A stretch of 64,000 bases of DNA from positions 1 through 64,000 of the forward strand of contig JAJCZL010000056.1 in NCBI GenBank assembly GCA_029262415.1. The letters run 5' to 3'. Below, in pieces: positions 29,005-50,207 of this stretch (positions are counted from its first letter, which is position 1; each line of letters starts with the position of its first letter). The position numbers and the translations under genes are program-made. The notes beneath the pieces are model-generated. The model made no database searches, was not told the DNA's origin, and saw nothing but the letters and a program-made list of their open reading frames with translations. This DNA comes from Deltaproteobacteria bacterium. GTDB lineage: Bacteria > Desulfobacterota > Binatia > UBA1149 > JAJCZL01.

Positions 29005-30783
29005 ATGGAAACCGACACCGAGCACAAAGCGGCAAATGCCCCTGCAGCTTTGCCTAAAACCACGCTGACCGACGGTGCGGGGCCGGAGGGCGAGGGCAAC
29101 GGTCATTTTGAACGGAGCCCTCTTGACGACGCACTGCTCGAATCGGGCAAGATCTCGGTTGACGACCTGCGCAAGGTCCGCCGCTTCTCTCACGAGAAGG
29201 GGGAACGCGTCGAGCGTATGCTGGTCGAACTCGGCTTTGTCTCCGAAGACGACCTGCTGCCGATTCTCGCGGTTTACCACGGCACCGAGTTGGTCAGTGC
29301 CGATACCATTCCAGCCGAACCTCCGGTCATCGACAAGCTCAGCCTTGAGTACATGCGTGCCAATCGGATTCTGCCGATGCGCCTGCACGACGGCATCGTG
29401 ACGTTGGCTATGGCCGACCCGGGCGACTCGACGACCATCGAGGTCGTCGAGAAGGTGACCGGCCTACAGGTTGAACCTTTGCTCGTACGTCCGCGTGACT
29501 TAGTCGAAAGGTTCGATGCGATCTTCGGCCGCGTCGAGGGTGAAGATGGTCGTGACGACGGTGGCGTCGAGCTGCTGCAGGACGATGAAGAAGACGTCGA
29601 ACACTTGCGTGACATGGCCAGCGAAGCGCCGGTCATACGTCTCGTCAATCAGGTTCTCTCGCGGGCGGTCGAGCAGCGCGCTTCAGATATCCATGTCGAG
29701 CCTTTCGAGAACGAGCTGCGTGTTCGGTTTCGCATCGACGGTGTTTTGCACGATATCGATCCGCCGCCGCGCAAGTTGACTGCGGCCATCATCTCGCGCA
29801 TCAAGCTGATGGCCAAGCTCAACATCGCCGAACGGCGTCTTCCGCAAGACGGGCGTATCAAGCTGCGCTTGGTCGGCCGAGAGATTGACCTGCGGGTTTC
29901 GACGCTTCCGACCTTATACGGCGAGAGCGTTGTCATGCGTATACTCGACCGTTCGAACGTGATGGTCGATCTTGGTCAACTCGGTATGCCCGAGGACACC
30001 TTGGGGACGTTCAAGGCGATGATCTCGCAGCCCCATGGGCTGATCCTCGTCACCGGACCTACCGGTTCCGGTAAGACCACGACGCTTTACGGCGCGCTCG
30101 ATAAGATCAATTCTCCTGAGAAGAAAATCATCACGATCGAGGATCCGGTCGAATATCAATTGCGCGGTGTCAATCAGATCCACGTCAAGGCCAAGATCGG
30201 ACTCACATTCGCGAGTGGGCTGCGCTCGATTGTGCGTCAGGACCCCGACGTGATTATGGTCGGCGAAATTCGTGATAGCGAAACCGCTGAGATCGCGATT
30301 CAAGCCGCGCTCACCGGCCACCTGGTTTTCTCCACGCTTCACACCAACGACGCAGCAGGCGCCGTTTCACGCTTGCTGGAGATGGGTGTTGAAGACTATC
30401 TACTTGCGTCGTCGCTACTCGGCGTGCTCGCCCAGCGACTGGTACGCACGTTGTGCAAAAAGTGCGCGGTGGCTGAACCGCTAGCTCCGGAGCTGGCCGC
30501 GCAGCTTGGTTGGGTTGGTGATTCTGCACGTCAGTCGGTATACGATGCCGACGGTTGTGCCGAGTGCGCGGGTACCGGATTCCGTGGACGGCGTGGTATT
30601 TATGAGTTGCTGTCAGTTAACGAAGACGTTCGTAAGCTCATCGTTTCGCGTGCGCCGGCCGACAAGGTCAAAGCGGCGGCGATTGACGGTGGGATGCGGA
30701 CCCTGAGGGAAGACGCTTGGCTACGCGTAAGCGACGGAATCACCAGTGTGGCAGAGATCATGCGCGTCACCCAAGACGAATAG
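29005..30783 (+). CDS. gspE: Type II secretion ATPase GspE
   Basis: A 592-residue secretion ATPase. The N-terminal T2SSE domain (about 40-170) holds LLESGKISVDDLRKVRRFSH and would bind GspL. The motor has GPTGSGKTTT from 351, the Asp box around 376-381, the His box and Walker B DPDVIMVGEIRD at 413-424. A zinc-binding tetracysteine (484, 487, 518, 521) marks GspE/PilB. It is separated from gspF by six glycan-type genes, whereas gspE and gspF usually adjoin. PilB is the alternative, but the only T2SS-like core genes nearby are gsp genes. Confidence 0.9.
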   Translation: METDTEHKAANAPAALPKTTLTDGAGPEGEGNGHFERSPLDDALLESGKISVDDLRKVRRFSHEKGERVERMLVELGFVSEDDLLPILAVYHGTELVSADTIPAEPPVIDKLSLEYMRANRILPMRLHDGIVTLAMADPGDSTTIEVVEKVTGLQVEPLLVRPRDLVERFDAIFGRVEGEDGRDDGGVELLQDDEEDVEHLRDMASEAPVIRLVNQVLSRAVEQRASDIHVEPFENELRVRFRIDGVLHDIDPPPRKLTAAIISRIKLMAKLNIAERRLPQDGRIKLRLVGREIDLRVSTLPTLYGESVVMRILDRSNVMVDLGQLGMPEDTLGTFKAMISQPHGLILVTGPTGSGKTTTLYGALDKINSPEKKIITIEDPVEYQLRGVNQIHVKAKIGLTFASGLRSIVRQDPDVIMVGEIRDSETAEIAIQAALTGHLVFSTLHTNDAAGAVSRLLEMGVEDYLLASSLLGVLAQRLVRTLCKKCAVAEPLAPELAAQLGWVGDSARQSVYDADGCAECAGTGFRGRRGIYELLSVNEDVRKLIVSRAPADKVKAAAIDGGMRTLREDAWLRVSDGITSVAEIMRVTQDE

Positions 30784-31724
30784 AACGAATCGCAGCCGTC
30801 GTCCCGGCCTATCTGTCTGAGACCACAATTGGGGCGACGCTCCAAGCGCTGTTGAGCCCGGCTTCGCCCAGGCTTGTTGGTATCTTTGTCGTAGCGTCGC
30901 CAGGTGACCGTAGCGCCGAGATTGCCGCACGATATTCCGCAGTCAGTGTTCTGCGTCCGCCTCGACGTATGAGTGCGGGTGCGGCACGTAACCTCGGTGC
31001 CGCAGAGGCCGCCCGCCGGGGCTGTGACGCGGTTCTGTTTGTGGATGCAGATTGTCGAATCGCTCCCGATTGCCTTGAGCGGCTCGCCCAGGCGCTCGAG
31101 CGGTCTGTAGCTGTCGCCGCTGCAGCAGCCGTGGTTCGCGACGGGAATGGGACGGTCGCGCGCTTGCGCCACGCGCTCGAGTTCAAGGACTCCGACGGCA
31201 GCGCGCCGCCGGGCCCGGTGGTGTTCGTGCCGAGCGCGACTTTCATTTGCCTAGGCTCGGCGTTTGAACGGGTCGGAGGCTTTCCGGATATGTGGCCCGG
31301 CGAAGACTTGGTGTTCTGTGACGCATTGCTAAGACGCTTCGGTAGAGCCGCGATTACTCGTGCGCCTGGGGCGAAGAGCTTTCATCGTCATCCGCATGGA
31401 TGGTGGAACATGGCTATTCACCAATACCGGTTGGGTCGCACCTCGGCGTTGGCGCGCAGGCGTGCGCGTATTCATGGCTCGAGGTGGGCGCGCACGCCGC
31501 TGGTGGCACCGGTACTCGCACTCGGTCGAATCGTCCGCGCGGTCGTGTGGTTCGCCCGCTACAAGAAAGACGAGTTGGTGTGGTTGGTCGCGGTGCTACC
31601 TGCGTACGCAGCGCTTGTCGGCATTTGGGCGGTGGGTTTCGCCGCCGGGTGTGGGGGCACCCTCACGCCCCACCGTGCGCTTGGTATCGATTCGCCCGTA
31701 GATAGCGCACGTCGGGCTGCCTGA
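30717..31724 (+). CDS. Glycosyltransferase family 2 with C-terminal membrane segment
   Basis: A GT-A glycosyltransferase. IAAVVPAYLSETTIGATLQA is the nucleotide-binding start, AVLFVDADCRIAPDCLE contains the DxD motif and GGFPDMWPGEDLVFCDALL the acidic acceptor motif. A hydrophobic segment LVWLVAVLPAYAALVGIWAV lies near the C-terminus. No ATG, GTG or TTG stands at the expected start. TTG 30717 overlaps gspE by 67 bases and adds 21 residues. An ATA at 30780, overlapping the gspE stop as ATAG, would give the expected MERIAAVVPAY start. The coordinates use TTG; the true start is unresolved. Confidence 0.8.
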   Translation: MATRKRRNHQCGRDHARHPRRIERIAAVVPAYLSETTIGATLQALLSPASPRLVGIFVVASPGDRSAEIAARYSAVSVLRPPRRMSAGAARNLGAAEAARRGCDAVLFVDADCRIAPDCLERLAQALERSVAVAAAAAVVRDGNGTVARLRHALEFKDSDGSAPPGPVVFVPSATFICLGSAFERVGGFPDMWPGEDLVFCDALLRRFGRAAITRAPGAKSFHRHPHGWWNMAIHQYRLGRTSALARRRARIHGSRWARTPLVAPVLALGRIVRAVVWFARYKKDELVWLVAVLPAYAALVGIWAVGFAAGCGGTLTPHRALGIDSPVDSARRAA

Positions 31725-31886
31725 GGCGTTCCCCCCGGCTTTTTGTGGTTCTGTGTCTGCCCGCGCGGCGCGGTCTATCAAAGATCCGAAGATCCGGCCT
31801 ATCCTGGCATTGTGCGCAGAGTTTGCGCTGTTGCTTTACGAATGTTCAGGTGGTGGACATAGGGTCCGCGAGAAGAGGTCTTGGTA

Positions 31887-32819
31887 TTGCGAGAGGCTCC
31901 GACACTTAACCAAGCACCCTCGGTCGGTGTTGTCGTTGTCGCATACAACGGCGGCACGCTGCTCGGAACTTGCGTTGATGCACTGGTCCGGCGTTCGCCG
32001 CGAGGTACGCGGGTGCTGCTAGTCGACAACGGCTCGAGCGACGGTTCAGTCGAGGCTGTTCAGGCGCAGTTTCCACGCGTGGCGATCTTGCGCCTGAACC
32101 AGAATTTAGGGTTTGCCGGCGGTGCGAACGCGGGCCTTCGGCATCTGACCGACGGCAGCGCGGACCGTACGCCGGTGCTGCTCGGCTTGGTCAACCAGGA
32201 TTGCATCGTGGCTGGCCGATGGCTCGAGCCCTTGGCGCAAGCGCTCACCGATCCGAGCATCGGTCTGGTCGGCTCGCGGCTGCTTGGCAGTGACGGTGTC
32301 ACGCTCGAACATGCCGGCGGGATCGTCGAAGCGAATGGGCTTACGCGACACATCGGTCGCGGTCTGAGCGATCGTAGAGCGTTCTCTCGCCACTCCGATG
32401 TCGAGTATGTGACCGGCGCGGTTGTGGTCATGCGGGGTGAAATCTGGAAGCGCTTCGGTCCCTTCGATGAAGGCTACTTCCCAGCCTACTTCGAAGAAGT
32501 GGACTTTTGTGTACGGCTACGCCACGCTGGTTTGCGAATCCGCTACGTACCCTCCAGCAGTGCCGTACACCATGTAGCTTCGGCTTCGGGCGGACCGGAT
32601 ACGCGTCTGTACTTCGAGCGTTACCACCGCAGCCGCATGCGCTTTGCCGCTCGTCATCTACTCGAGCGCGGCCAACGTTTGCAGTTTCTCAAAGCAGAAC
32701 TGAAGTGGCTGGGGCAGTTGCGTGACCGTTCGCATCTCGGCGCAGCTATCAACGCCTACAAAACGCTTCCGCAAGAATTGCGCGACGCGCGCAAGTCAAA
32801 GCGGAGCCACGGGCAGTGA
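31887..32819 (+). CDS. Glycosyltransferase family 2, rhamnosyltransferase-like
   Basis: A 310-residue GT2 resembling the WbbL group. SVGVVVVAYNGGTLLGTCVD starts the fold, RVLLVDNGSSDGSVEAVQAQ and RLNQNLGFAGGANAGLRH follow, LVNQDCIV stands where NPD-type motifs bind the metal, and FDEGYFPAYFEEVDFCVRLR is the acceptor region. I use TTG 31887, eight bases after AGAAGAGG; TTG 31881 is too close to it. The preceding 162 bases hold no gene I can support. Sugar and acceptor are not known. Confidence 0.85.
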   Translation: MREAPTLNQAPSVGVVVVAYNGGTLLGTCVDALVRRSPRGTRVLLVDNGSSDGSVEAVQAQFPRVAILRLNQNLGFAGGANAGLRHLTDGSADRTPVLLGLVNQDCIVAGRWLEPLAQALTDPSIGLVGSRLLGSDGVTLEHAGGIVEANGLTRHIGRGLSDRRAFSRHSDVEYVTGAVVVMRGEIWKRFGPFDEGYFPAYFEEVDFCVRLRHAGLRIRYVPSSSAVHHVASASGGPDTRLYFERYHRSRMRFAARHLLERGQRLQFLKAELKWLGQLRDRSHLGAAINAYKTLPQELRDARKSKRSHGQ

Positions 32820-34234
32820 GCCGCCTGTGCCTGGTCGGCGTCGGTCTCCCGGCATTCGTTGCCGGACGTGAACACGCAGGGCCGGGCCTGCGCAGCGCGC
32901 ATTTTGCCGTCGCCGCTGCGCGTGCAGGCCACGAGGTCCTGCTGGTCTGCGTGTTGCCCGAAACACGCGCGCTCGAACCGGCTTTTGTCCATGCACCGGT
33001 TGCTTCGGTCGGCGGCCTGCGTGCTGCCGCCATTCGTACCGTTTTCGCTCATGAGAAAGGCTTTCCGCACTCACCGTTGCGAGAGCAGATCGAGGCTTTC
33101 GATCCGCAGGCGCTTGTCGGTGTGACGGCGTACGGCGCTTCTGTTGCGCTGAGGATTGGCTTGCAGGTGCCGATGTGGGCCGACGTGTTCGGTGACTTAA
33201 TGGCCGAAGCACAGGCCAAGTCGCTCGCGGCCGGCTCTGACGCGTGCCTCGTCCATTTTTGGAGCTTGTTGGCACCGGTACTCAACCGGGCCGACCGGTT
33301 CTCTGCGGTCTCAACCGCCCAGGCCCACGCGCTGGTCGGCCAACTCGGACTGTGTGGGCGGCTCTCGGCAGCCACTGCCGGTGAGAATTTTGTGCGGGTA
33401 ATCCCGTGTTCCGCCGAACCTCCGTCACCCGAGCTGCATGGTGTCGGCCGCTTTCGATTGCGCGGAGAAGTAGTCCCTCAGGATGCGCGCATCGTCCTAT
33501 GGAGCGGTGGTTTCAACACCTGGTGCGACGTGGACACCTTCGCGCGCGGCATCGAACTCGCAATGGACGCCGATGTGAGTCTTCACTTGGTGGTTACCGG
33601 TGGGTCGATTGGCGGGCACGACGAGCGCACCTATGAACGGTTTCGTAGCCTCGTCGAGCGTTCCCGCAACGTTGCACGTGTCCACCTGCTCGGCTGGATC
33701 GAGTCGGACGGGCTGGTTGGTTGCTACGCCGATGCCGACCTGGGGATCATCGTTGAGCGCGATTTGTACGAGCGACGCCACGGTTCGGAGAACCGTGCGG
33801 TTCATTGGATGGCGCATGGACTCCCGTTTGCAACCACGGCTCTGAGTGAATTTGGAGGCTATGCGTGCGCAGCCGGGTGTGCGTTCGCGATCGAGGCCGG
33901 ATCGCCCGCGTCGCTGAGCGAGACGCTTGGTGCAGTGTTCGCGCATCCGTCGGCGCTCGCGAGCGCCTCTGCGCGATGCCGAGAGCTAGCCGGACGTGAA
34001 TTCAGCTACGCCAGTGCGAAGCCGTTTCTTGACTGGGCCGCTTCACCAATCAAGGCGGGGGATCACGGTTGCGAACGTCCGTTGCGCCCAGGGCTGCTTT
34101 CGGAGCCCGAGGCCCTCGCCGATGTCCTTGAGGCCTATCTGGCCGGACTCAGTCTCATGGAACTCGGTCGCCGCTCGACACGCTGGCTGTGGCGTCGTGT
34201 GCTCGGTATTGGGGCCTACGGCGCGCACGGTTGA
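32816..34234 (+). CDS. Glycosyltransferase, GT4-like (GT-B fold)
   Basis: A 472-residue protein. The N-terminal domain starts SRLCLVGVGLPAFVAGREHA, then RSAHFAVAAARAGHEVLLVC. The C-terminal domain has ARIVLWSGGFNTWCDVDTFA, ARVHLLGWIESDGL and LPFATTALSEFGGYACAAGC, in the order of a GT-B donor domain. The usual EX7E element is poorly conserved. The GTG start overlaps the previous stop (GTGA), so the two transferases are coupled. Substrates cannot be inferred. Confidence 0.72.
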   Translation: MSRLCLVGVGLPAFVAGREHAGPGLRSAHFAVAAARAGHEVLLVCVLPETRALEPAFVHAPVASVGGLRAAAIRTVFAHEKGFPHSPLREQIEAFDPQALVGVTAYGASVALRIGLQVPMWADVFGDLMAEAQAKSLAAGSDACLVHFWSLLAPVLNRADRFSAVSTAQAHALVGQLGLCGRLSAATAGENFVRVIPCSAEPPSPELHGVGRFRLRGEVVPQDARIVLWSGGFNTWCDVDTFARGIELAMDADVSLHLVVTGGSIGGHDERTYERFRSLVERSRNVARVHLLGWIESDGLVGCYADADLGIIVERDLYERRHGSENRAVHWMAHGLPFATTALSEFGGYACAAGCAFAIEAGSPASLSETLGAVFAHPSALASASARCRELAGREFSYASAKPFLDWAASPIKAGDHGCERPLRPGLLSEPEALADVLEAYLAGLSLMELGRRSTRWLWRRVLGIGAYGAHG

Positions 34235-34272
34235 GAACCGATCCGCGTGCGCGTAGTCTCACGGACTGCGTC

Positions 34273-35943
34273 GTGGCAAACCCCGATAAAGTATTCGTCA
34301 TCGGTCTCGACGGCGTCCCTTTTGACATCATCCGTCAGTGGGCCGACGAGGGGCACATGCCGGTGTTCAAGCGATTGATCGAGGAGGGTGTCGCGGGCTC
34401 CTTGGGTTCGACCATGCCGCCGACCTCGGGTCCCTCTTGGTCAAGTTTTACCACCGGCAAGAACCCCGGCAAGACGGGGATCTACGATTTTCTTTATCGG
34501 CGTCCCGGTTCTTACGTTTTCCCTCCGGTCAGCGCACGCATGCGCAGCGGCCGGTCGCTGTGGAGTATTCTCTCGGAGCGGGGAAAGAAGGTGGGTGTCG
34601 TCAACCTGCCGATCTCTTATCCCGTGGAGAAGGTCAACGGCGTGCTCGTCAGCGGATGGATGACGCCGTATTACGCCAAAGACTACACGTATCCTCCTGA
34701 GCTGGCTGCTGAGATTGACCGCGAGGTCGGCGACTACCGCATATACCCGGCTGAGACGTTTGCCGAGGGCCGCAAAGACGCTTTCTTCAAAGCCTGCGAT
34801 GAACTGCTCGAGCTGTTGACGCGAACCACCATGCATCTGATGGATCGCGACGATTGGGACTTCTTCATGACGGTCTATTTCGATACCGACCGTGTGTTTC
34901 ACCAGCTATGGCATTATCTCGACCCTGCACATCCTTGGAGAGCCGACGATAAGCGCGATTTATCGACACCGGTCAAGCGCTACTTTTCGCGGTTAGACGC
35001 CGATGTCGGCCGTTTGCTCGACAAGCTTCCCGAAGACACGCGTGTGATGGTCATGTCCGATCACGGCATGGGCACTGCCGCGCGCTTCATCGTACTGAAC
35101 AACCTGCTGCTCGAGACCGGCTGGATCAAGCTAGCCGACGACGCGGGGACACGAATGAAAGCGTTCGCCTTCCGACGCGGGTTTACGCTGCGCAACGTGC
35201 ACAAGATTGTCGACCGGTTGGGGCTCGCCAAGCATGCCGAGTACAAGAACGTCTACAGCTTCGATGGTGTGCTCAAGCGCTTCTTCCTTTCGTTCCTCAA
35301 CGTCGATTGGCGACGCACGCGCGCTTACTCTTTTGGTCGGCACTACGGTTCGCTCTATCTCAACGTGAACGGCCGCGAGCCACAGGGCTGCGTCGCGCCT
35401 GGTAAGGAATACGAGCGTGCGCGTGAGGAATTGAGCGAAACACTACTTTCTTATGTCGATCCCGAACTCGGCCGCCGACTGTTCGCGCGCGCGATCAAGC
35501 GTGAAGACCTCTACGCGGGCAAGCACTTCGACGAGGCGCCCGACTTGATCGTCACGCCGCAAGATCCGACCGATATCGTGTTTGGTCTTTCCGATTTCGG
35601 CTCCAACCGTGTTTGGGACGCGACCTACCGCTACTCTGGTATGCACCGCGAGGACGGGATGATCATCGCGCACGGCCCTGGGGTTCGCAGCGGTGAATCG
35701 TTCGCAGGGGGGGCGGTGATCGACCTTGCGCCGACCATCCTGCATTGGATGGATCAGGCGGTACCTGCGGATATGGACGGCCGGCCATTGGCCTCGATGA
35801 TGACGGATGACTTCATGAGCAAGCGTCCAGTCTGTGTGGCCGAGCCTGTCTCCGATCGCGACGACACCTCCGCGCACGACTACTCGACGGACGAGGAAGA
35901 GGAAATCATGGACCGACTTCGCGACCTCGGTTACATGAACTGA
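34273..35943 (+). CDS. Alkaline phosphatase superfamily hydrolase (type I phosphodiesterase-like)
   Basis: A 556-residue cytoplasmic protein without signal peptide. Metal-site motifs of the superfamily are in order: FVIGLDGVPFDII (Asp13), MPPTSGPSWSSFTTGKNPGK with the Thr/Ser nucleophile near 51-52, YFDTDRVFHQLWHY, VMVMSDHGMG and the histidine of YSGMHREDGMIIAHGPGV. It resembles COG3379-type hydrolases often seen in glycan loci. I chose GTG 34273; the frame is open further upstream into the preceding gene, but the added residues do not look conserved. The substrate, possibly a phosphodiester-linked glycan or nucleotide sugar, is unknown. Confidence 0.82.
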   Translation: MANPDKVFVIGLDGVPFDIIRQWADEGHMPVFKRLIEEGVAGSLGSTMPPTSGPSWSSFTTGKNPGKTGIYDFLYRRPGSYVFPPVSARMRSGRSLWSILSERGKKVGVVNLPISYPVEKVNGVLVSGWMTPYYAKDYTYPPELAAEIDREVGDYRIYPAETFAEGRKDAFFKACDELLELLTRTTMHLMDRDDWDFFMTVYFDTDRVFHQLWHYLDPAHPWRADDKRDLSTPVKRYFSRLDADVGRLLDKLPEDTRVMVMSDHGMGTAARFIVLNNLLLETGWIKLADDAGTRMKAFAFRRGFTLRNVHKIVDRLGLAKHAEYKNVYSFDGVLKRFFLSFLNVDWRRTRAYSFGRHYGSLYLNVNGREPQGCVAPGKEYERAREELSETLLSYVDPELGRRLFARAIKREDLYAGKHFDEAPDLIVTPQDPTDIVFGLSDFGSNRVWDATYRYSGMHREDGMIIAHGPGVRSGESFAGGAVIDLAPTILHWMDQAVPADMDGRPLASMMTDDFMSKRPVCVAEPVSDRDDTSAHDYSTDEEEEIMDRLRDLGYMN

Positions 35944-35951
35944 GGACGATC

Positions 35952-38900
35952 GTGGCGCAGTTTCAGCGCTTCGCGGCAGCGGCCCTCGCGCTCTCCGCAA
36001 CAGCCGGAGGTTTCGGCTATTGGCGCGGGATTCCCGCCGCGGTTCTGGTTGTGTTCGTTATCTGGCTTCCCGGACACGTGTTGGTCACTACGGCTTTTGC
36101 GCCGCGAAGCCGTAATGCATGGTCGAGCGGGCCGGCCGCACCGGTTGCCGCATGGGTGGCGGGGATGTTCGTGTTTGGTCTCGCGCTGGCACCGGTGGCC
36201 CTGGCCGGCTGGGGTTGGACCGCGACGGTTCGCACCACGGCCTTTTTGCAACTCGGCATCGCGTGCGCCGCACTGGCGTCAATGCGTGTAGGAACGCGAG
36301 CTTTAACGGGCTGTTCCGGCCCGAGCGCAAAGGCAACGCGGACACAGTCGCGCGACACCTATGTGGTCGCCGGCATGGTCTTAGCAGTGCTGTTGCCGAT
36401 GGTTCTCACATACGCCGGCGGTAAGGTTGATGACTGGTGGGATCTCGCCTTCATTCGTGCACACGCCGAGGCCTCGTCATTCTCCTTTTTGCAGCCGGTG
36501 ATCACCGGCGATCTTGTTCACCCGCGTTTCAGTTGGAACCTGTGGTGGCTGCTTCAGTCTTTCTTGAGTACCTACTCGGGACGAGATCCGGTCGAGATGC
36601 AGTCGGCGCTGGTACCGTTCTTGGTCTGCGTGCTTTCGGTGAGCGCACTCACGTCACTCGCGGCTTCACTTTTTCTACCTGACACTGAACCCGCCGTCGC
36701 CCCAGGGTCGACTCGTAGTCTTTCGCCCAGCCGCGAAACACAGGTTGCACTTCTCCTGATGCCGGTGTGGTTGTACGGAACCGAGGCGTTTCCGTACTTC
36801 ACGCGCTTGCACCAGGACAAGTTTGCGGCGGTACTTGTCGCGGCGCCGTTGACGATCGCGGTTCTCTTACAGGCGCTGCGTACTCCGTCGCGGTTGCACA
36901 GCGTAGCGGTGTTTGTAGCGGCAGCGGTTACCTGTTCGATCCATTCGGTGGTCTACGGCTATCTGCTTTTGTTGGGTGCGGCTGTGGTGGTCGCCTGCAC
37001 GGGAGTTCATGACCTGCGCCGTCATGCCCTTACGTCTGTCGCCCTGGCGCTTCCTGTGGTGTTTCCGCTTTGGCAGTCGTACGCACTCTCTGAATTGTTT
37101 GTTGCGCAGGGGATCTCACTCGCAAATATGGGCAACCCGGTGGTTCGCGCTCACGTTTGGCTCGACCGTCTGGCCGGCGCCGGGTCACCGTACTATATCG
37201 TCAGACCGAGCGCTGCGTTCGGCCCGGTTGCGCTGGTTGCCTTGCCGGGGCTGGCTGTTGCGTGGAGGCGCCGTGCACAGGTAGGAATGCGCGCGTTGAT
37301 CGCCCTCGCCGTGGTGCCATGCTTGCTTGCGTTTATACCGGGGGTGGCTGCGATTGTGGGACGGGTCTTCGTTCCGTGGATGTTGTATCGGGTGCTGTGG
37401 TTCGTTCCGGTTGCCGTCGGCGGCGCACTTACGGTGTCGTGGGTGACTGACAATAGCGAAGGTTTACGGCGCGCGGCCTCGCTGGTGCTGTTGGGCGCAG
37501 TGACGCTCGCGCTCGCTGTGCCGGTTGCGGCCGACCGTGCGCATCGCGGAATGAGCGTGCGACCCTTCGAACGATCGGCACATCCCGAGGCAGCGGCGTT
37601 GGCCGCCTACAGTTTCCTCCGCAACGAGCCGGGGCGGGGCGCGGTGCTTGCGCCTGCGGGGTTCTCTGAGCTGGTACCGGCGATGACGGGACGGCCCGTC
37701 GTTGCCATCTCTGAACGGGGGACGTTGGTGTTTTCGCCGACCGAACGAGGGGCCTACGAACGGCTACGTGATCGCGCCGAGTTCTTCGCGCGCGACTCGA
37801 CGCCTGCGCACCGGACCGATATCGCCGACCGCTACGGCGTTACGCACGCGGTGTTTCGCAAGAAGTACATTGCGACTGGATCCGAGGCGGCGCTGCTGCG
37901 CCGGTACAGTGCCGAAGGCGTACTTCTCCGCACCGCCGCCGAGCAAGCGGGCGCGGGAGAGGTTTGGAGTACCTCCACCGCACGAATACGCGCGGGGTTG
38001 TCCGCAGGGTGGAGTGTTGTCTTCGACAGCGCAGACTTCGTTGTTGCGCGGCGGCAGGTGACCGGCGATGACGCTGTGTCTGAGCGACCGTTGCAAGACG
38101 TGGAAGCTGCCGCGGTGCGAGAGGAACCCCCATCGCGTTGGTTGAGAGTGTTCGAGTTGACGGAGCCCGCGGCGACGATCGCGGGTGAGAATTCGGAACC
38201 GCCCGCAGCGCACCGCTTGCTCGCCTCCCTTGTCGGTGAACCCGGTGCGGATATTCGTATCGATCCGGTACCCTTGGCGATCGGTAATGCCGAGACCCTG
38301 GTGTGGACATCGGGGGTGGCGTTGTGGGATGACGGGCCCTCTGAGGTCTCGGTGACGCTTGGGTTTGGCACGGTCTGCGAGCCCACACGCGTTGAGGTAC
38401 TGCCGTATCTACGCAAATCCCGGCGCGAGGTTTGGGAGATCCGCGCGTCGATTCGGCGTGCAAGCGAAGCACGGTTCTTGCCCGCAAGGCCGATTCCTAT
38501 CATTGCGCGTGCTTTGGATCACCGTCCGATCGTCGTCGAACTGGGCGCTGCGGCCGATGGGCCAGGCTCGACTGCACACGCGAGCAGGGCAAGCACGGCA
38601 GGGACGATCGGGGCAGCGGCTGAAGTCCGTATCGAGGTTCGCAGTATGCTGGGAGAACCGTTCGGCATCGCCGATATTCGGGTTTTCGGCGACCGTAGCC
38701 TCTGCGCCGGTCAGCGGCCTGGCCCAGCGACGGGGCCGCTGCAAGAAATTGACCTTTCCGAGCTGCTGTCGATGGCGGCCTCGTACCCGAACGATGCACG
38801 CCCAGCGATCGCGGTGCACCGTCGACTCAACGAAATGGGCGCGTTTGCTGACGCCGATGCATTCTTGCAGGCGGCTCTTTTGCGCGACCCGAGCCTTGCC

Positions 38901-40694: not shown

Positions 40695-40735
40695 GATGGT
40701 TACTGCGCGCTCTGGCGAGCGGCAGGCTGCAGCCT

Positions 40736-41977: not shown

Positions 41978-42011
41978 TGGCTCGGCCGCAGTAAGGAGTG
42001 TTTGAGAACCC

Positions 42012-42464: not shown

Positions 42465-42488
42465 CGCGATCGAAGCAAAACCCCAGTG

Positions 42489-42962
42489 GTGAACCCGCGC
42501 GGCACATCTTCCCAGACGGGGTTCACGCTGATCGAACTCGTGGCCGTACTCGTCATCATGGCGCTGGCTTCGGCTTTGGTGATACCGTCGGTTCGTTCGG
42601 GCAACGAGCAGCGCGAGGTTCGTCGCACCGTCCAGCGGTTTGTTTCGGCGGTGCGCGCGGGATCCTCGCGCGCGATCCGTGAGCGTAAGCTAGTAGGCCT
42701 GGTGCTCGATGTTGAGAAACCGAGTTTCGGCGTCCGCGGTGATGACCGTGTTATCGAGCTGCCATCGTCCGGCGCTTTCGGCGAAATCCGCGGCGGCTAC
42801 GTCGAGGGTGACGGGCAGAGGTTCGTTTTCGAGTTCTATCCAACCGGAGGGTCGACCGGCGGCTCTGTCGAACTCGTCTTCGAATTACGCGCCGGTCGCC
42901 AAACGTACGTGATGAACATCAACCCGCTTCTCAGCACCGTGGGTATCGAGGAGGGGATGTGA
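42489..42962 (+). CDS. gspH: Minor pseudopilin GspH
   Basis: A protein of about 157 residues starting at tandem GTG codons (42486, 42489). The cleavage site QTG/FTLIELVAVLVIMALASA is followed by the helix with NEQREVRRTVQRFVSAVRAG and a GspH-type beta domain. Order G-H-I-J-K identifies it. Its stop overlaps the region of the gspI start. Confidence 0.9.
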   Translation: MNPRGTSSQTGFTLIELVAVLVIMALASALVIPSVRSGNEQREVRRTVQRFVSAVRAGSSRAIRERKLVGLVLDVEKPSFGVRGDDRVIELPSSGAFGEIRGGYVEGDGQRFVFEFYPTGGSTGGSVELVFELRAGRQTYVMNINPLLSTVGIEEGM

Positions 42963-43390
42963 TGCGTGGTGTCGGCCGGGTCAAGCCCGAAGGTGGCTTC
43001 ACCCTGATCGAGGTGATGGTGGCGATGGCGGTACTGTCGTTTGCGTTGGTGAGCGCGTTGCAGCTCTTTGCCGGGAGCATGCGGCTGGCGGGTAACTCGG
43101 TGGCGCATACCAAAGCGCTGATGCTCGGCCGTTCAGTTATGGACGAAATCCTTTGGCAGGCGGAACTCGAAGACCTCGAGGTTTCCGACCGGACTCCAGA
43201 CGGCTACCGGTGGTCGGCTTACGTCGGACCGGTGGCGGTCGCTTTGGGGGCGACCGCGGACGACGAAGGCGTAGGCGCCGACTCCGACGAGTTCGAACTC
43301 AAGCAGATCATCGTGCGCGTTGATTGGGAGGGAGTGCTCGGTGAAAAATCTATTGTTCTCGAGTCGGCGCGTCTTGCGGAGCGCTATTGA
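42962..43390 (+). CDS. gspI: Minor pseudopilin GspI
   Basis: A 142-residue minor pseudopilin with cleavage site EGG/FTLIEVMVAMAVLSFALV and the GspI-like NSVAHTKALMLGRSVMDEIL segment. ATG 42962 is six bases after GAGGAGGGG (42949-42956); GTG 42959, overlapping the gspH stop, is the alternative. GspI, J and K form the pseudopilus tip in known systems. Confidence 0.9.
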   Translation: MRGVGRVKPEGGFTLIEVMVAMAVLSFALVSALQLFAGSMRLAGNSVAHTKALMLGRSVMDEILWQAELEDLEVSDRTPDGYRWSAYVGPVAVALGATADDEGVGADSDEFELKQIIVRVDWEGVLGEKSIVLESARLAERY

Positions 43391-44124
43391 GCGCCGCGAC
43401 GACAGCAAGCTTCAGAGGCGAGCGCGGCTTTACGCTACTCGAAATGATGGTCTCGATGTTCATCATGGCGCTGATGTCGGCTTCGATTTACGGCGTGCTT
43501 TCTATGGGCGCTCGTGCTGCGGCCTCAGGGGAGCGTAAGACCGAACAGGCGCGACGCTTGCGGTTGGCGACCGATTTGATGGTCAGGCAGCTACGCTCGA
43601 CAGTACCGATTGCGTTGATCGTTGACGGCGAGTCTCGCGAGTTTTTTGTCGGTGAGCACGATCGAGTCACGTTCGTCACCTCGGCCCCGCAGATTCCGGA
43701 CTCCAGCGGCCTTAGTCTCGTCAGCTACTGGCGCGAAGGCGACCGGCTGATGTATTCAGAGGTTCCGCGCTTCGCGGTCTTTGACGCCGAAGATATCGAC
43801 GAGATCACCCAGGAGCTGTCGATGTCGACGACGCTGCTTTATGACGTCGACGCCGTAAGCTTTTGGTACCGGCGAAACTCGAGTCGCGATGAAGAGGTTT
43901 CGGATGAATGGGACGCATCCAAGGAAGACGACTTGCCCGCGGTCGTCGAGATTGTGGTGACACCGGCTACGCCGGACGGACCGTCTTGGCACCACCAGGT
44001 GCCGATCTTGGTCGGCGTGTTCAACGAGATCAGTGGAGAAGACGACTTCCGCGGCCGTCGCCGCGCAGTGACGCGGGAGCCCGAGCCGGACGACGACGAT
44101 GACGACGACGATGATGACGAATGA
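43387..44124 (+). CDS. gspJ: Minor pseudopilin GspJ with poly-aspartate tail
   Basis: A 245-residue pseudopilin starting at TTG 43387, which overlaps the gspI stop (TTGA). The cleavage site is ERG/FTLLEMMVSMFIMALMSA. VRQLRSTVPIALIVDGESRE and the later FWYRRNSSRDEE fit GspJ. The last 11 residues are ten aspartates and one glutamate, encoded by GAY codons at 44089-44118, which I have not seen as a normal part of GspJ. The tail ends at the gspK start region. Confidence 0.9.
   Translation: MSAATTASFRGERGFTLLEMMVSMFIMALMSASIYGVLSMGARAAASGERKTEQARRLRLATDLMVRQLRSTVPIALIVDGESREFFVGEHDRVTFVTSAPQIPDSSGLSLVSYWREGDRLMYSEVPRFAVFDAEDIDEITQELSMSTTLLYDVDAVSFWYRRNSSRDEEVSDEWDASKEDDLPAVVEIVVTPATPDGPSWHHQVPILVGVFNEISGEDDFRGRRRAVTREPEPDDDDDDDDDDE
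44089..44118 (+). repeat. GAY codon tract encoding ten aspartates
   Basis: Ten consecutive GAC or GAT codons at the end of gspJ, followed by GAA and the stop. The tract runs directly into the possible gspK start ATGATGACGAAG. Such trinucleotide tracts can change length by slippage. Confidence 0.9.
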
Positions 44125-44207
44125 TGACGAAGTGTTCTAAATCGTCGCTTCGGCGACACGATTCGGCCGCCTACGCGGACGGCGAGCCGCTGCGTGAGGA
44201 CGCGCCG

Positions 44208-45245
44208 ATGCGCGAGTCGGCACTGTCACGGCTGCGTCACTCGCGCGGCGCGGCGTTGATTCTGGTTTTGTGGACGTTCTCTGTCCTGTCGGTGTTGGCA
44301 GGAGAGTTCGCCCGAGCGATGCGCGAAGATGCTCTCAGCACCCGCAACTTTCGCTTGCAGACTACCGGCCAATACATCGCGATGGCGGCTATCAACGAGG
44401 CGATATTGGCGATGATTACGGCTCGTGACGATGACCTTGATGACGACCCCGACGACGAAGAGATCCCCGAGCAAGAACTGCCCTTCGACCCTGACGCTCC
44501 GCCGATCGATAGTGGCAAGCGCGCGATCCGGATGTTAATGCAGGGTGACGGCCGCTGGGTACGCGGCGCTTTTGCGGGTATCCCCTATGAAGTCAGGGCT
44601 ATCGACGAGGGCGGCAAGATTGCGATCAATCAGGTTGACGTCGAGGTGATCCGCTTGGTGATGCTCAACCTTGGATACGAGGAACTCACTGGAGACACCG
44701 TCGCCGACTCGATAGCTGACTGGATCGATGAAGACGATCTCCACCGCATAAACGGTGCCGAGGAGGATTTTTACGACGGGTTGCCACGGCCTTATCCTGC
44801 TAAGAATGCGCCGCTGGAGGCGATCGAGGAGTTGCTGCTCGTGCGTGGGGTTACGCGGTCGATCTTTTACGGAGGCGACGGGGTTCCGGGACTGCGCGAG
44901 ATCTTCTCTGTATTTGCGACTAACGATAAGCTGAACCTGCGCAGCATCCGTCCCGAGGTCATGATTGCGATCAGCGGAATTCCCGAGGACGATGCCGACG
45001 AGTTGCGTCGGCGCCGCAATCGAAGCGGAGAAAACGTCTCAGAAGAGCTGAGGGTGCTGGTTACCGGCAGCGGTCTGGGAACTCCTCGCGAATCGGCCTT
45101 GACGGATGTGACGATCGAGGCCCGGGTAAAAGATGCGGCAGGGCGCATTGTTGCGCATGTGGGGGCGGTGGTGAAGGTACGGAATGGTTTCCGAACTTAC
45201 CGCTGGTATGATTCGGTGTTCGAGGACGACGGGGAAGCGAGCTAG
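44208..45245 (+). CDS. gspK: Minor pseudopilin GspK
   Basis: A protein of about 345 residues, larger than the other pseudopilins as is typical. The leader ends SRG/AALILVLWTFSVLSVLAGEF without the glutamate at position 5, as usual for GspK. The alpha domain contains AINQVDVEVIRLVMLNLGYE-like helical sequence and SIADWIDEDDLHRINGAEED, the calcium-binding SAM-like part in known GspK. I prefer ATG 44208, eight bases after GAGGA. The frame is open from ATG 44121, which overlaps the gspJ stop and would add 29 residues. Confidence 0.87.
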   Translation: MRESALSRLRHSRGAALILVLWTFSVLSVLAGEFARAMREDALSTRNFRLQTTGQYIAMAAINEAILAMITARDDDLDDDPDDEEIPEQELPFDPDAPPIDSGKRAIRMLMQGDGRWVRGAFAGIPYEVRAIDEGGKIAINQVDVEVIRLVMLNLGYEELTGDTVADSIADWIDEDDLHRINGAEEDFYDGLPRPYPAKNAPLEAIEELLLVRGVTRSIFYGGDGVPGLREIFSVFATNDKLNLRSIRPEVMIAISGIPEDDADELRRRRNRSGENVSEELRVLVTGSGLGTPRESALTDVTIEARVKDAAGRIVAHVGAVVKVRNGFRTYRWYDSVFEDDGEAS

Positions 45246-46621
45246 TGGAGACGCCGGGATTTCTCAAACGGCTTTCGAAAGTCGATGTGGCGGATGCTGT
45301 GGGTGTATACGTCCGTAAGGACGTGGCCTCGGTAGCTCTGGTCAAGAAACGTCTCCGCAATGTACAGGTCGCGGCGGTCGAGTCGCTTGAGCTTTCGGGG
45401 CCTCCGGAGGCACACGACGCAGAGGTCGCCGCGTTTCTACGCCGATTTGTCGCGACGCATCACGCCGACGGAGCCCGCCTGGCTCTCGCCCTCGAGCCGC
45501 GCGATACGCTGATCAGTGAGTTGCAGTTGCCGACATCGGCGGCGGATAATATCGACAAAGTCGTCCAGTACGAACTCGACCGCATCATGCCCGTCGCCGG
45601 CGACTCGTTGTATCACTCCATATACACACGGCCGATGGGGACCGAAGGCGAACGCATCAGTGTGACCGTTGTCGGTGCTCAGAAAGACCGCGTCGATGTG
45701 CTGCGCGGAGTCATGGCCGAGGCTGGCGCAGCGCCTACGGCAGTGAGCGTCCAGCCTGTCGCGCTGTGCAACTATGTAAGTTTTTGTCTTGGCGAAGAAC
45801 GTCCACTCTGCGGAATCTTCTGCGTCGAATCGGACCGTGAGTACCAGACGCTTGCGTGGCAAGGACGTATGATCTCGAGCCACCGCTTCGACCGTAATTC
45901 TAAAGGCGGTCGGCAGGGCTCGCTCGCTCGCGAGATAGAGCGGTCTCTGCCCGAACGTGCCGGTGAGGAGCCGGTCTTGGTTACCGAGATCCCCTCCGAC
46001 CCTGGAGCGTTCGTACTCGCAGGCATAGCGCCGACGGGTTTCATGCAGGAGGATCAGGGGGTGACGTCCTCGACCGAGATCGTTGCGATCGGCGCTGCGT
46101 TGGGAGAACTCGGCGAAAGCGGTGCTCGTCTGAACCTGCTTCCTACAGGAATGGTTCGCGTTGAGCAGGGGATCGGCCTGCGCGAGATCGGACTGTCGGC
46201 TCTGGTGGCAGTGCTTGCGTTGGTGCTGCTTGTCTCTATCGGCATCAAGAACCTAAGCGTTTCTAACGCACTGGCCTACGAGCTTTCACGTTTGGAGCCG
46301 GTCGTTACCGAGGTTGGTCGCCAGCAGGAGCGCAACAGGCAAATCGCTGCCAAGCTCGAGGCTCTCGAATCAGCGCGCAAGCTCGGGATACTCGAATACA
46401 TGCGTGCTCTGACTGTATTGGTTCCAAAATCGGCGTACCTGACGACGTTTCGGTTTCGTGGCAACAGGCTCGAGGTTAACGGTATCGCCGACTCATCGGC
46501 GGAGCTGATTTCGATTCTCGAGAATTCGCAGCAGTTCAAGCAGGTCGAGTTCACGGCGCCGACGACCAAGTATTTGCAGAGCAAAGAGCGCTTTTCGTTG
46601 CGCATGGGGCTTGAAGAATAA
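45245..46621 (+). CDS. gspL: Type II secretion protein GspL
   Basis: A 458-residue protein. The cytoplasmic actin-like (PilM-like) part contains ADNIDKVVQYELDRIMPVAG and SVQPVALCNYVSFCL. One membrane helix, GLSALVAVLALVLLVSIGIK, is near residue 328. The periplasmic ferredoxin-like (PilN-like) domain contains LRALTVLVPKSAYLTTFRFR-like sequence. GspL anchors GspE to the membrane and pairs with GspM. It starts at GTG 45245, overlapping the gspK stop by one base. Confidence 0.9.
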   Translation: METPGFLKRLSKVDVADAVGVYVRKDVASVALVKKRLRNVQVAAVESLELSGPPEAHDAEVAAFLRRFVATHHADGARLALALEPRDTLISELQLPTSAADNIDKVVQYELDRIMPVAGDSLYHSIYTRPMGTEGERISVTVVGAQKDRVDVLRGVMAEAGAAPTAVSVQPVALCNYVSFCLGEERPLCGIFCVESDREYQTLAWQGRMISSHRFDRNSKGGRQGSLAREIERSLPERAGEEPVLVTEIPSDPGAFVLAGIAPTGFMQEDQGVTSSTEIVAIGAALGELGESGARLNLLPTGMVRVEQGIGLREIGLSALVAVLALVLLVSIGIKNLSVSNALAYELSRLEPVVTEVGRQQERNRQIAAKLEALESARKLGILEYMRALTVLVPKSAYLTTFRFRGNRLEVNGIADSSAELISILENSQQFKQVEFTAPTTKYLQSKERFSLRMGLEE

Positions 46622-47238
46622 TGACGTTGCGTGAACGTTGGAACGGGCTGGCGAAGCGAGAGCGTTATTTGTTGCTGGCGTTCACCGGCCTCGCCGGGGT
46701 CGCGCTGGTGCGCTTTTTCGGCAGCGGCGTACTCGGCGACGTGTCGTTGGGCGGTGACGATACCACCTGGGTTCAGACGCAGAAGATCGAAAGCTACCGC
46801 AAGATTGCCGCACGCGCGGAGTCCGCGGCCAAGCAGGGGAAGGAGCTGGAGAAGCGCTACGCGCAGGCCCAGGCGCGGCTGTTGGCGGGTAGCACGCCGA
46901 CTGAAGTAGGGGCGGAATTGCAGGGGCGTTTGAGTTCCATGGCGAGTGCTGCAGGGCTCAACGTGCTTAGTTCGCAAATCTTACGCGAAGAAGAGGACGG
47001 GGAGTTTCGTCAAGTAGGGGTGAGATTGTCCCTTAGCGGCGGGCTTGAAGGGGTTGCCCGCTTGCTGTCATCGGTGGAGACGGGTGAGATAGACCTGAAA
47101 GTCACTCTGCTGGAGATCAACCGCAAGCTCGGGGCATCCAGGCGTCCGGTTCCTGGACGCAATCAGCCTCCGCCGGCCGCGGTTTCGCCCTTGACCGCAA
47201 CAATGGAAATAAAAACCTATATGCAGGAACCCCTATGA
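46621..47238 (+). CDS. gspM: Type II secretion protein GspM
   Basis: A 205-residue bitopic protein. The membrane helix RYLLLAFTGLAGVALVRFFG is at about residues 15-34. A coiled-coil region with RAESAAKQGKELEKRYAQAQ and a ferredoxin-like C-terminal domain with RLSLSGGLEGVARLLSSVET follow, as in GspM/PilO. The ATG overlaps the gspL stop by one base and the stop overlaps the gspC start (ATGA). Position after gspL supports the assignment. Confidence 0.88.
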   Translation: MTLRERWNGLAKRERYLLLAFTGLAGVALVRFFGSGVLGDVSLGGDDTTWVQTQKIESYRKIAARAESAAKQGKELEKRYAQAQARLLAGSTPTEVGAELQGRLSSMASAAGLNVLSSQILREEEDGEFRQVGVRLSLSGGLEGVARLLSSVETGEIDLKVTLLEINRKLGASRRPVPGRNQPPPAAVSPLTATMEIKTYMQEPL

Positions 47239-48011
47239 GGCAGGTTCTACAACTCTTGTCGCTCTTGCTTGCTGTAATCGCCGTCGCGGTTGGCTGGCGT
47301 ATTATGCAGGTGGTCAGAATTGAACCGCCGGTTTTCAACGATCCCGAACAAGTGGCCGCTGCCGGACCCGCGTTCGCTCCGGTACGCCGCAAGAACCCCA
47401 ACCCTGCTATAATTACCGCTGTAGTCGATGGTAACATTTTCCAGGAAGAACGCGGGTATACTGAAAAGCCGGGTGACGGCGAGCCGGTTGATGTGCCGCT
47501 GCCACCTCCGACCAACGTTTTGTTGAGCGGTATCATAGTGTTGGGCGGCGAACCGATTGCCATCCTGACCGATACCAAGCAGGGTAACGCGCAGAAGTCG
47601 CTACGGATGGGTGAGATGGTGGATGTGTACGAGGTAGGTGAGATCGGTGACGCGGATGTCACGCTTCTGGGCCCTGGCGGGCAGAGGTTTGCGCTCGCGT
47701 TGGAGATCTCCAAGGGGCCGGCCCGGCGCGCGACACCTTTGCGGCCTACGCCCTCGCGTGCGACGCCACCGCGTCCAACGCCCACAAGGGCAACGCCGCC
47801 GACGCGCCCCGGGCGACCGACCCCCGCTTCGCGAACGCCTCCCAACCGTGCAACGACGCCCGCGAATAATCGCGCGGCACAGGCCAACAGGGCGGCAGCT
47901 AGGCCACGGCCGGCACCGACGCGTCCTCAACCGCAGGACAACCGAGCAGACCCGGCCCAGGCGAGGCTCGAGGCTCTCAAGCAACTGAGAGCCGCGGCGG
48001 CTGGCAACTAA
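47235..48011 (+). CDS. gspC: Type II secretion protein GspC-like, repeat-rich tail
   Basis: A 258-residue bitopic protein. The N-terminal helix is LLSLLLAVIAVAVGWRIMQV. The HR-like periplasmic domain (about 65-160) contains TNVLLSGIIVLGGEPIAILT and AQKSLRMGEMVDVYEVGEIG. There is no PDZ domain; instead about 90 residues rich in Pro, Thr, Arg and Ala follow, with a ten-residue repeat. GspC links the inner membrane platform to the secretin. It is placed before gspD, after gspM, rather than first in the operon. Confidence 0.8.
   Translation: MRQVLQLLSLLLAVIAVAVGWRIMQVVRIEPPVFNDPEQVAAAGPAFAPVRRKNPNPAIITAVVDGNIFQEERGYTEKPGDGEPVDVPLPPPTNVLLSGIIVLGGEPIAILTDTKQGNAQKSLRMGEMVDVYEVGEIGDADVTLLGPGGQRFALALEISKGPARRATPLRPTPSRATPPRPTPTRATPPTRPGRPTPASRTPPNRATTPANNRAAQANRAAARPRPAPTRPQPQDNRADPAQARLEALKQLRAAAAGN
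47727..47801 (+). repeat. 30-bp tandem repeat in the gspC tail
   Basis: Two full copies and one partial copy of a 30-base unit encode RATPLRPTPS, RATPPRPTPT and RATPP. Similar but degraded proline and threonine-rich sequence continues to about 47860. The repeat is in frame, so copy changes would keep the gene intact. Confidence 0.85.
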
Positions 48012-48014
48012 TAG

Positions 48015-50207
48015 ATGCGGATTCTCCCCAGCACCGGCCGTCTAGCGCGGAACTGGCTACTGGCTTGCGCGGCCTCGTCGGCCGTAGGGCTATTTGTCTG
48101 CGGCATGTCGATTCCTGCATCATTCGCGCAAACCGCGGGCGCTGCGCACGAGGAGGGTTCTGAGAACGAATCCGTCGTCCTGAACTTTGAAGGGGCGGAC
48201 ATTCGTGAGGTGATCTACAGCCTGGCGACCGCGCTGGACATTAATTACTGGCTCGACCCACGGGTGCAGGGCCAGGTGACTGTGCGCACGGCGAGTCCGA
48301 TTGCGCGTGAAGACCTGCTGCCGGTGTTCCACCACATACTGCGCAACAACGGCTATATCGCCGTTGACGACGGCGAGATGTACGTCATCTCGCCGGCCGA
48401 GGACGCCAAGGCCCGCGTGCGCGTGCCCGGTCGGGAAGACGCGAAACGGCGCGGTGAAGACCACCTGATCATGGAGCTTGTGAAACTCGAGCACGCGGGC
48501 GCTGAAGAAATCGTTCAGCTGATCCAGACCTTTGTTACGCCCGGCGGTGACATTCTTGCGTATCCGCGTAGTAACCTGGTGATCATCTCCGACATTGCTT
48601 CCAACGCAGAGAGGCTTGCGGATCTAATTCGTACCTTCGACACTGACACGTTCGACGATCTCACAGCGAAGATCTACAGGATCGAGCACGCGTCGCTAGA
48701 AGAGATCGGTGAAGAACTCAGCGCGGTTCTTGACAGCTACCAGGTCCTGCAAAGCGGTGCCGGTCTGTACATGATCCCGCTGGTTCGCTTGAACTCTATT
48801 GCGGTGATCTCGGCCGACAAGGAAGTATTCGTCAATGTCGAGTACTGGTTGAGTACTCTGGACGTTCCGGCCGAGAGTTCTTCGCTGCGCAAGATTCACG
48901 TTTACCACGTCGAGAATACCAAGGCGGCGGATCTTTCGGTCATCCTGAACGACGTATTCGCAAACGAGGGTGCCAGCGTGTCCGGTGCCAGTAGCGGTCG
49001 TTCGGGCGCGGCTGCAGAGTCGGGACTCGGACTCGGCGGTGGCTTCGGCGGGCGCGGGGGTGCTCAAAATAACCAACGTGGTAACACCAACCAACGCGGG
49101 GCACAGCAGAATCAGAACCAACGCCAAACCCAGCGTGGCGGACGTGACACAGGACGCACTGGAGCTGCGCGCGGCGGCGCCGGCACCGGCGTGGTCGGCG
49201 AGGCCGGTTCGCTGTTCGAACAAGAAGTCAGCATCGTTGCCGACGAGATCACCAATGCGTTGGTGATCTTGGCGACGCCTCGCGATTTCGAGCAGATCTC
49301 GGATGTTCTTAAGCAACTCGACATCGTCCCCCGCCAGGTCCTGATCGAGGTCTTGCTTGCCGAGATCACCCTGACCAACGACAGCACTTTCGGGGCCGAG
49401 CATCGGTTGCTCGAGACGGGTACCGGTTCGAATACCGATGCGGTGCTTGACGGAGGCGGGACCTTCTTCGACCTCTTTGGCGAAGAAATCAGACTCACCG
49501 GTTCGACGGGTGGCGGCGTGGTCGGCGTGTTTACGCATTTCCGCGACGGCCGGGCTGTGTACGACGCGGTTCTTTCGGCGTTGGCGAGTCGCAGCCGCGT
49601 CAAGCTCCTCTCGCGTCCGCATATTCTCACCGCGGATAACAAAGAGGCGAGTATTTTGATCGGGAACGAAGTTCCGATCATCACTCAGCAGCAGAACTCG
49701 ACGGCGCAGACCGGCGGCAGCTCTAATCTTCTCCAGAACGTTCAGTACCGCGATACCGGCATCATCATCCGCGTGTTACCGCAGGTGAACTCCGCCGGTT
49801 TGGTGAATATGCAGATCAGCCAAGAGGTCAGCGAGATCGCCGCTGGACTCCAGGTCGAGGGCATCACCTCGCCGACCTTTACCACCCGCGAGACCGAGAC
49901 CACGGTTGTCGTACAAAACGGCGAGACGATCGTGATCGGCGGAATCATCCAAGAGAACAAAAACTCGACAAGCTCGGGTGTCCCGTTTTTGATGGACATC
50001 CCAGTGCTCGGCCAACTCTTCAAGCGTGACAGCGAATCGTTGCGTCGTACGGAGTTGGTTGTTCTGATCACCCCTTATGTTGTCCGCGACCGCGAGGAAG
50101 CCCGCTCGGTGACCGAAGAATTCAAGCGGCGGGTGGACAACGTCCTCAAAGAGATCGGACCCGACATCGAGACCGACTCGGTAAGCCACACGTTCATATT
50201 GCAGTAG
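48015..50207 (+). CDS. gspD: Type II secretion secretin GspD
   Basis: A 730-residue outer membrane secretin with signal peptide (cut near SFAQTAG). N0 begins VVLNFEGADIREVIYSLATA. N1 to N3 contain IMELVKLEHAGAEEIVQLIQ and ending VYHVENTKAADLSVILNDVF. A glycine, glutamine and asparagine-rich insert (about 320-395) interrupts N3. The secretin core has RQVLIEVLLAEITLTND, SRSRVKLLSRPHILTADNKE, GNEVPIITQQQNS and GVPFLMDIPVLGQLFKRDSE. The C-terminal region after TPYVVRDREEARS may serve as a pilotin contact. It closes the gsp run. Confidence 0.94.
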   Translation: MRILPSTGRLARNWLLACAASSAVGLFVCGMSIPASFAQTAGAAHEEGSENESVVLNFEGADIREVIYSLATALDINYWLDPRVQGQVTVRTASPIAREDLLPVFHHILRNNGYIAVDDGEMYVISPAEDAKARVRVPGREDAKRRGEDHLIMELVKLEHAGAEEIVQLIQTFVTPGGDILAYPRSNLVIISDIASNAERLADLIRTFDTDTFDDLTAKIYRIEHASLEEIGEELSAVLDSYQVLQSGAGLYMIPLVRLNSIAVISADKEVFVNVEYWLSTLDVPAESSSLRKIHVYHVENTKAADLSVILNDVFANEGASVSGASSGRSGAAAESGLGLGGGFGGRGGAQNNQRGNTNQRGAQQNQNQRQTQRGGRDTGRTGAARGGAGTGVVGEAGSLFEQEVSIVADEITNALVILATPRDFEQISDVLKQLDIVPRQVLIEVLLAEITLTNDSTFGAEHRLLETGTGSNTDAVLDGGGTFFDLFGEEIRLTGSTGGGVVGVFTHFRDGRAVYDAVLSALASRSRVKLLSRPHILTADNKEASILIGNEVPIITQQQNSTAQTGGSSNLLQNVQYRDTGIIIRVLPQVNSAGLVNMQISQEVSEIAAGLQVEGITSPTFTTRETETTVVVQNGETIVIGGIIQENKNSTSSGVPFLMDIPVLGQLFKRDSESLRRTELVVLITPYVVRDREEARSVTEEFKRRVDNVLKEIGPDIETDSVSHTFILQ

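Follow-up and report, generated by a model that had tools for sequence, protein, structure and literature searches.

Glycan genes between gspE and gspF in a type II secretion locus of the Binatia

Introduction

Glycosylation and type II secretion have been connected in Vibrio cholerae, where O-glycosylation by PglL affects type II secretion (PMC6901666). This general O-glycosylation system resembles the arrangement that we propose below for Binatia in that glycosylation of envelope proteins is functionally tied to the efficiency of the type II secretion system (T2SS); it differs in that PglL is a ligase of another type, from which the GT-C of Binatia is distinct, and in that the link in Binatia is known from genome arrangement alone. 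To our knowledge, PglL is not encoded in a T2SS operon. A second comparison is offered by the TMTC O-mannosyltransferases, which combine a GT-C with TPRs and are reported to have 11 TM helices and a DUF1736 domain (PMC7801869). A third is given by Wzm/Wzt-dependent O-antigen clusters, which bring together GT2 and GT4 genes with an ABC permease and ATPase.

In T2SS loci gspE is usually followed directly by gspF, although this order is not a defining requirement. Here we analysed a stretch of 64,000 nucleotides (the window), part of a 3.9-Mb assembly that is 97% complete in 83 contigs and comes from a member of order UBA1149 of the Binatia (Ca. Binatota). In the window gspE and gspF are separated by 9.95 kb, and a six-gene glycan cassette lies between them. 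In relatives this cassette shares with the Wzm/Wzt-dependent clusters its GT2 and GT4 genes and an ABC permease and ATPase; unlike them, it is embedded between gspE and gspF, and the ABC pair is missing in the window genome.

Results

Open reading frames and Pfam matches place, closely packed on the forward strand, gspE, two GT2 genes, a GT4 gene, an AP hydrolase gene, a gene for an 1136-aa membrane protein, a second GT4 gene and gspFGHIJKLMCD; this is the order given in the initial annotation, and its recurrence in relatives bears it out. The T2SS ATPase gene gspE (29005..30783; T2SSE 6e-147, MshEN) is the best of five T2SSE-family members within the genome. The cassette opens with c1, a GT2 glycosyltransferase gene (30717..31724; PF00535 5e-16) whose true start is uncertain, no in-frame ATG or GTG being found close to the gspE stop. 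A 156-bp gap (31725..31880), the site of a Wzm/Wzt-like ABC exporter pair in relatives of the order, separates it from the second GT2 gene, c2 (31881..32819; PF00535 5e-19). Then come c3, a GT4-type glycosyltransferase (32816..34234; PF13692 1e-6), c4, an AP-superfamily phosphodiesterase (34189..35943, with a probable start near 34276; PF01663 4e-43), c5, a predicted GT-C glycosyltransferase with C-terminal TPRs (35952..39362; Pfam, fold model and topology), and c6, a GT4 glycosyltransferase (39359..40693; PF13439 1e-9). Beyond gspF (40736..41977; T2SSF 1e-64), the genes gspG, H, I, J, K, L, M, C and D (42012..50207) were recognised from profile and motif evidence and have an order conserved in relatives. 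The T2SS component set is thus complete at one locus, with GspE, GspF, GspG, the minor pseudopilins, GspK, L, M and C, and a GspD secretin with an N0 domain; GspC was called from a weak, below-cut-off match, and H, I and J from the N-methylation motif and position.

The cassette genes had been described as mostly coupled by overlaps, which holds for c2/c3 and c5/c6 (4 bp each) and also for c3/c4 if the early c4 start is used, and fails at the gap between c1 and c2. The spacers are short between c4 and c5 (8 bp) and between c6 and gspF (42 bp). Sequence scans returned 2 promoter-like sites against 3.2 expected and 25 terminator-like sites against 15.9 expected.

Two further genes precede gspE on the forward strand. 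One is a cupin / mannose-6-phosphate-isomerase-type gene (27429..27959; Pfam Cupin_2 3e-9, MannoseP_isomer 1e-7), a member of a conserved neighbourhood of LptD, nucleotide-sugar genes and gspE that recurs upstream of gspE class-wide; the other is cobW, for a COG0523-type GTPase (28049..28987; Pfam cobW 5e-42), which stands upstream of gspE in most relatives of the order with contigs long enough.

A comparison of gene order in relatives and a count of co-occurrence, the two checks proposed with the initial annotation, gave the same picture. The cassette is present in 13/13 genomes of the order, spanning four families: c4, at 61-73% identity, was found together with gspE in every one, and so was c5. 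In all eight genomes that have gspE and gspF on one contig the cassette sits between them, in a gap of 10-14 kb, while in the remaining five the pieces are split by contig breaks. The six core genes keep their order in relatives with covering contigs, with the exception of one genome in which c2 was undetected, and in-place orthologues are 36-47% (c1), 43-50% (c2) and 44-54% (c3) identical. Since this order recurs in independently assembled relatives, it is not an assembly join or the product of chance. A cassette elsewhere, accompanied by an intact gspEF pair, was looked for and not found in the order; intact pairs were seen solely in other families. Upstream of gspE, where contigs of the order extend that far, lie trp, folC, LptD, cupin and cobW genes. 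A Wzm-type permease gene stands between c1 and c2 in 8 of the 13 genomes, with a Wzt-type ATPase gene too where this was read, and no relative of the permease was detected in the whole window genome at E 1e-15. The named public records nearest to c4 are Candidatus Binatia, Binatota and UBP10 UBA1149 MAGs.

These results refute the recent insertion that had been offered as one origin of the cassette. A recent horizontal insertion whose co-transcription was merely retained would agree with the GC content of the cassette (0.60-0.65, slightly above the 0.59-0.61 of the gsp genes) and with the grouping of the order's c4 with Chloroflexota sequences in the tree; however, the cassette is kept by the whole order, at an unchanged position wherever contigs are long enough, the order's c4 and c6 genes each form a single clade, and glycan genes that are related or analogous occupy the slot in other families. 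We therefore regard a recent arrival as scarcely credible.

gspE and gspF were then searched in 145 Binatia genomes, a sample of one class, mostly draft genomes, in which contig breaks are frequent within the cassette. Genes at distant loci were called with a codon-usage gene caller, so that starts and small genes are approximate, and were named by Pfam in some cases and by sequence inspection or BLAST to a named neighbour in others. In family f5, gspE and gspF adjoin (60-170 bp) in 11 of the 13 genomes with both on one contig, and the other two have opposite-strand genes without a glycan domain between them. In f11 the pair either adjoins or is parted by one AP gene (1.54-1.57 kb). The gap measures 3.6-10.3 kb in f9, where its contents vary between genomes and include DPM-like GT2, PMT_2 GT-C, KAS III, MaoC-like, AP, GT4 and MsbA-like genes. 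In f8, where three genomes have the pair on a single contig, it reaches 20.8-26.8 kb and holds DPM-like GT2, GT4 and PMT_2 (opposite strand), Wzm/Wzt-type ABC, PPIase, WecB and Wzy_C (WaaL-like) ligase genes and several GT genes; a 520-aa secreted protein is also encoded in f8 cassettes, and inspection of it by eye revealed no C-terminal surface-sorting tag. The two genes lie far from each other in f7, with distances of 0.76 and 0.87 Mb in two genomes that are single contigs. Cupin, RmlABC, GMD and RMD genes are recurrent upstream of gspE, the full set not being found in each family.

Such variety raises the question of whether the junction is a hot spot of neutral insertion and the cassette a cargo whose linkage was never selected. 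The change of junction contents between families speaks for this, as do the AP hydrolases of two separate subfamilies found in the slot and the two f5 genomes with opposite-strand, non-glycan genes. Gene set and order are nevertheless conserved across several families within the order, and the same-strand genes in the gaps outside f5 are mostly glycan or envelope genes; moreover, the window contains no tRNA genes, and none of the nameable interval genes is mobile-element-like. On this evidence we hold a neutral hot spot to be improbable.

The last cassette gene, c6, is an element shared near gspF with f8 and f9. A c6-like GT4 (E < 1e-25) occurs in 32 genomes of the class, of which 24, from the order, f8 and f9, have it at most 8.2 kb upstream of a gspF on one contig; in three others the contig is limiting and in five it is unlinked to gspF. 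In the c6 tree the order, f8 and f9 each form a single clade, and gspF-linked and unlinked copies are not separated. A gspE+gspF tree rooted on f5 sets the order with f7 against f8, f9 and f11, and at least four changes of state at the gspE-gspF junction are needed on it. From these trees one ancient interruption is possible and is not required, and the slot may already have been filled, with later changes of content, before several of the families diverged. The AP genes of f9/f11 fall into a subfamily distinct from that of the order's AP genes, which implies at least two arrivals of an AP gene in the slot or the replacement of one by another.

In c4, residues D12, T50, D205, H209, D262, H263 and H457 are invariant among 13 orthologues; they presumably form a two-metal site with a Thr nucleophile, an assignment that we make from the ligand set of Xanthomonas NPP. 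NPP is among the top fold matches of the c4 model (pLDDT 71), and the protein is probably cytoplasmic, as no signal peptide was seen in its sequence. Chloroflexota homologues are 50-60% identical, and in three loci the nearest of them adjoin PMT_2 GT-C genes, of which two are TPR-fused. The gsp queries had no match in the Chloroflexota stretches read around the c4 homologues. This pairing of AP with GT-C(-TPR) away from a T2SS suggests that c4 and c5 form a functional unit of their own, which would later have joined the T2SS operon.

The AlphaFold2 model of c5, with 12 orthologues, has a pLDDT of 78 and a pTM of 0.75. The best fold matches of its membrane region (residues 133-704) are human and yeast STT3 and archaeal AglB (Z 19-22, the top near 22; rmsd 5.0-6.6; 10-13% identity; about 475 residues), with which c5 also has a similar acidic first-loop motif; DPY19 matches at Z 18, and residues 981-1136 match TPR proteins, e.g. 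OGT. The layout comprises about 15 TM helices, a periplasmic VDDWWD loop, a periplasmic beta domain and the TPRs, and a positive-inside charge count puts the VDDWWD loop and all beyond residue 531 in the periplasm. D160 and D161 of VDDWWD are invariant among c5 orthologues, and D160 is also kept in paralogues; D160, W163, R192-F193, D289-K290 and other residues are common to the orthologues and to TPR-less paralogues. One TPR-less paralogue in the window genome matches DUF6077 (PF19554; E 6e-9), for which we found no paper in the open-licence literature; c5 shares these invariant motifs with the paralogue and departs from the family in scoring below its model and in its added TPRs.

c5 was considered as a canonical STT3/AglB, and the profile and motif tests ruled this out. 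In profile comparison c5 gave a weak match to PMT_2 (probability 46%) and none to STT3. At an E cut-off of 0.01 the STT3 profile (PF02516) matched nothing in the window genome, with archaeal controls positive, and the WWDYG motif is absent from c5 and its orthologues. Among the 60 matches listed in a c5-profile search of solved structures, the TPR part only was matched. STT3-type proteins of other Binatia do have WWDYG. With TMTC, c5 has in common an N-terminal GT-C membrane domain and C-terminal TPRs on the exported side; it differs in its roughly 15 TM helices, its inserted beta domain, the lack of a DUF1736 match in Pfam scans and its bacterial origin. Judged by its modelled fold, c5 would work like a GT-C enzyme, and we propose it as a bacterial glycosyltransferase candidate that resembles the TMTCs in layout.

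Discussion

Gene content, order and conservation, and with them the GT-C-type fold of the c5 model, its motifs and its topology by charge, are derived from sequence, and they lead us to favour, at somewhat under even confidence, an ancient glycan-assembly module that has been passed on stably as part of the Binatia T2SS operon, with exported proteins as the likeliest recipients of c5 transfer. Co-transcription, activity, lipid carrier, acceptor and effect on secretion are what we infer. The cytoplasmic GT2 and GT4 enzymes c1, c2, c3 and c6 would assemble a glycan on a lipid carrier, while c4, also cytoplasmic, might trim or recycle a phosphorylated or nucleotide-sugar intermediate; in relatives, the Wzm/Wzt-type ABC exporter would flip the product. 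c5, predicted to expose its catalytic loop, its beta domain and its TPRs to the periplasm, could then transfer sugar to a periplasmic acceptor, most likely exported proteins such as T2SS cargo, periplasmic helpers or pseudopilins. The TPR and beta domains lead us to favour protein acceptors, as does the general lack of LPS in Chloroflexota, where the AP and GT-C pairing also occurs.

The neighbourhood can be read otherwise. The cassette may serve an O-antigen-like or other surface glycan, its place among the gsp genes reflecting merely the clustering of envelope genes in Binatia, with no mechanistic coupling to secretion. LptD and the cupin, Rml, GMD and RMD genes upstream of gspE across families would fit LPS or O-antigen synthesis, as would the Wzm/Wzt, WecB, WaaL-like (Wzy_C-type) ligase and MsbA-like genes of the f8 and f9 intervals, and they count against a protein-glycosylation reading. 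So do the lack of an STT3 match and the weak PMT_2 match of c5, the missing ABC exporter of the window genome, and the clusters of AP, GT4, GT2 and membrane-protein genes that stand at other sites in genomes of the order, away from gsp genes. The cassette is, however, within the gsp unit and not beside it, on the same strand and with short spacing in the order; the TPR tail of c5 is typical of protein-binding enzymes; and the AP homologue can pair with a GT-C(-TPR) in Chloroflexota, where LPS is generally lacking. We take this explanation to be a serious possibility, and given the LPS-type neighbourhood a plain surface-glycan role is nearly as likely as protein acceptors.

The embedded glycan genes, among them one for a predicted sugar transferase of the membrane whose tail would bind proteins, suggest that secretion and glycosylation may cooperate. 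The functional link, the other option of the initial annotation, is supported in part: deep conservation, the repeated occupation of the junction mostly by glycan and envelope genes and the GT-C and TPR nature of c5 speak for it, and the link could run through pseudopilins, secreted substrates or a surface glycan. A stronger version, which we consider unlikely, is that the Binatia T2SS has a dedicated, operon-encoded glycosylation arm in which c5, as a GT-C of a new kind with beta and TPR domains, decorates cargo or pseudopilus in the periplasm and glycosylation is integral to secretion.

In the open-licence papers searched we found no earlier description of a gsp-embedded cassette, and the text of the 2021 uncultured Binatota genome survey contains no secretion or glycosyl terms (PMC8262859). 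If the link is true, this is a natural system that encodes glycosylation and type II secretion together; even if the coupling is purely genomic, one junction in much of the class saw glycan genes turn over with the secretion genes unmoved.

Additional observations

In the Binatia family f8, the interval between gspE and gspF encodes a conserved protein of 516-527 aa (L119, 7627-9174; L120, 5948-7519; L123, 1914-3494), for which no Pfam match was obtained at any of these loci; this protein is probably secreted and is a candidate T2SS cargo. In two single-contig genomes of family f7 (G027:C1 and G099:C1), gspE and gspF lie 0.76-0.87 Mb apart, and the T2SS is dispersed. The window's own contig carries a PilB/PilC-like pair approximately 80-90 kb downstream (G000:C56:131922-134911).

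Immediately upstream of gspE in the window is a cobW-type gene (28049-28987), possibly encoding a metal chaperone, which precedes the presumed metal-dependent AP hydrolase gene, c4, by four genes. Chloroflexota homologues of c4 (L108-L118; 50-60% identity), some adjoining MFS transporters and others PMT_2(-TPR) genes, suggest a transfer between phyla.

Another AP-GT4-DPM-like GT2-membrane-protein cluster, not near gsp, was observed in the window genome (L167, G000:C42, 669-10080) and in relatives (L169, L172); in all three, the membrane protein was judged by eye to be GT-C-like, and a probable UDP-sugar dehydrogenase gene follows the cluster.

Tandem paralogues of the membrane protein c5, TPR-less and DUF6077-like, are found elsewhere in this genome (L082, G000:C34, 8603-13596), adjoining a luciferase-like oxidoreductase gene, named by inspection. 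TPR-less c5 paralogues are likewise paired with such a gene in L083, and a single one in L084.
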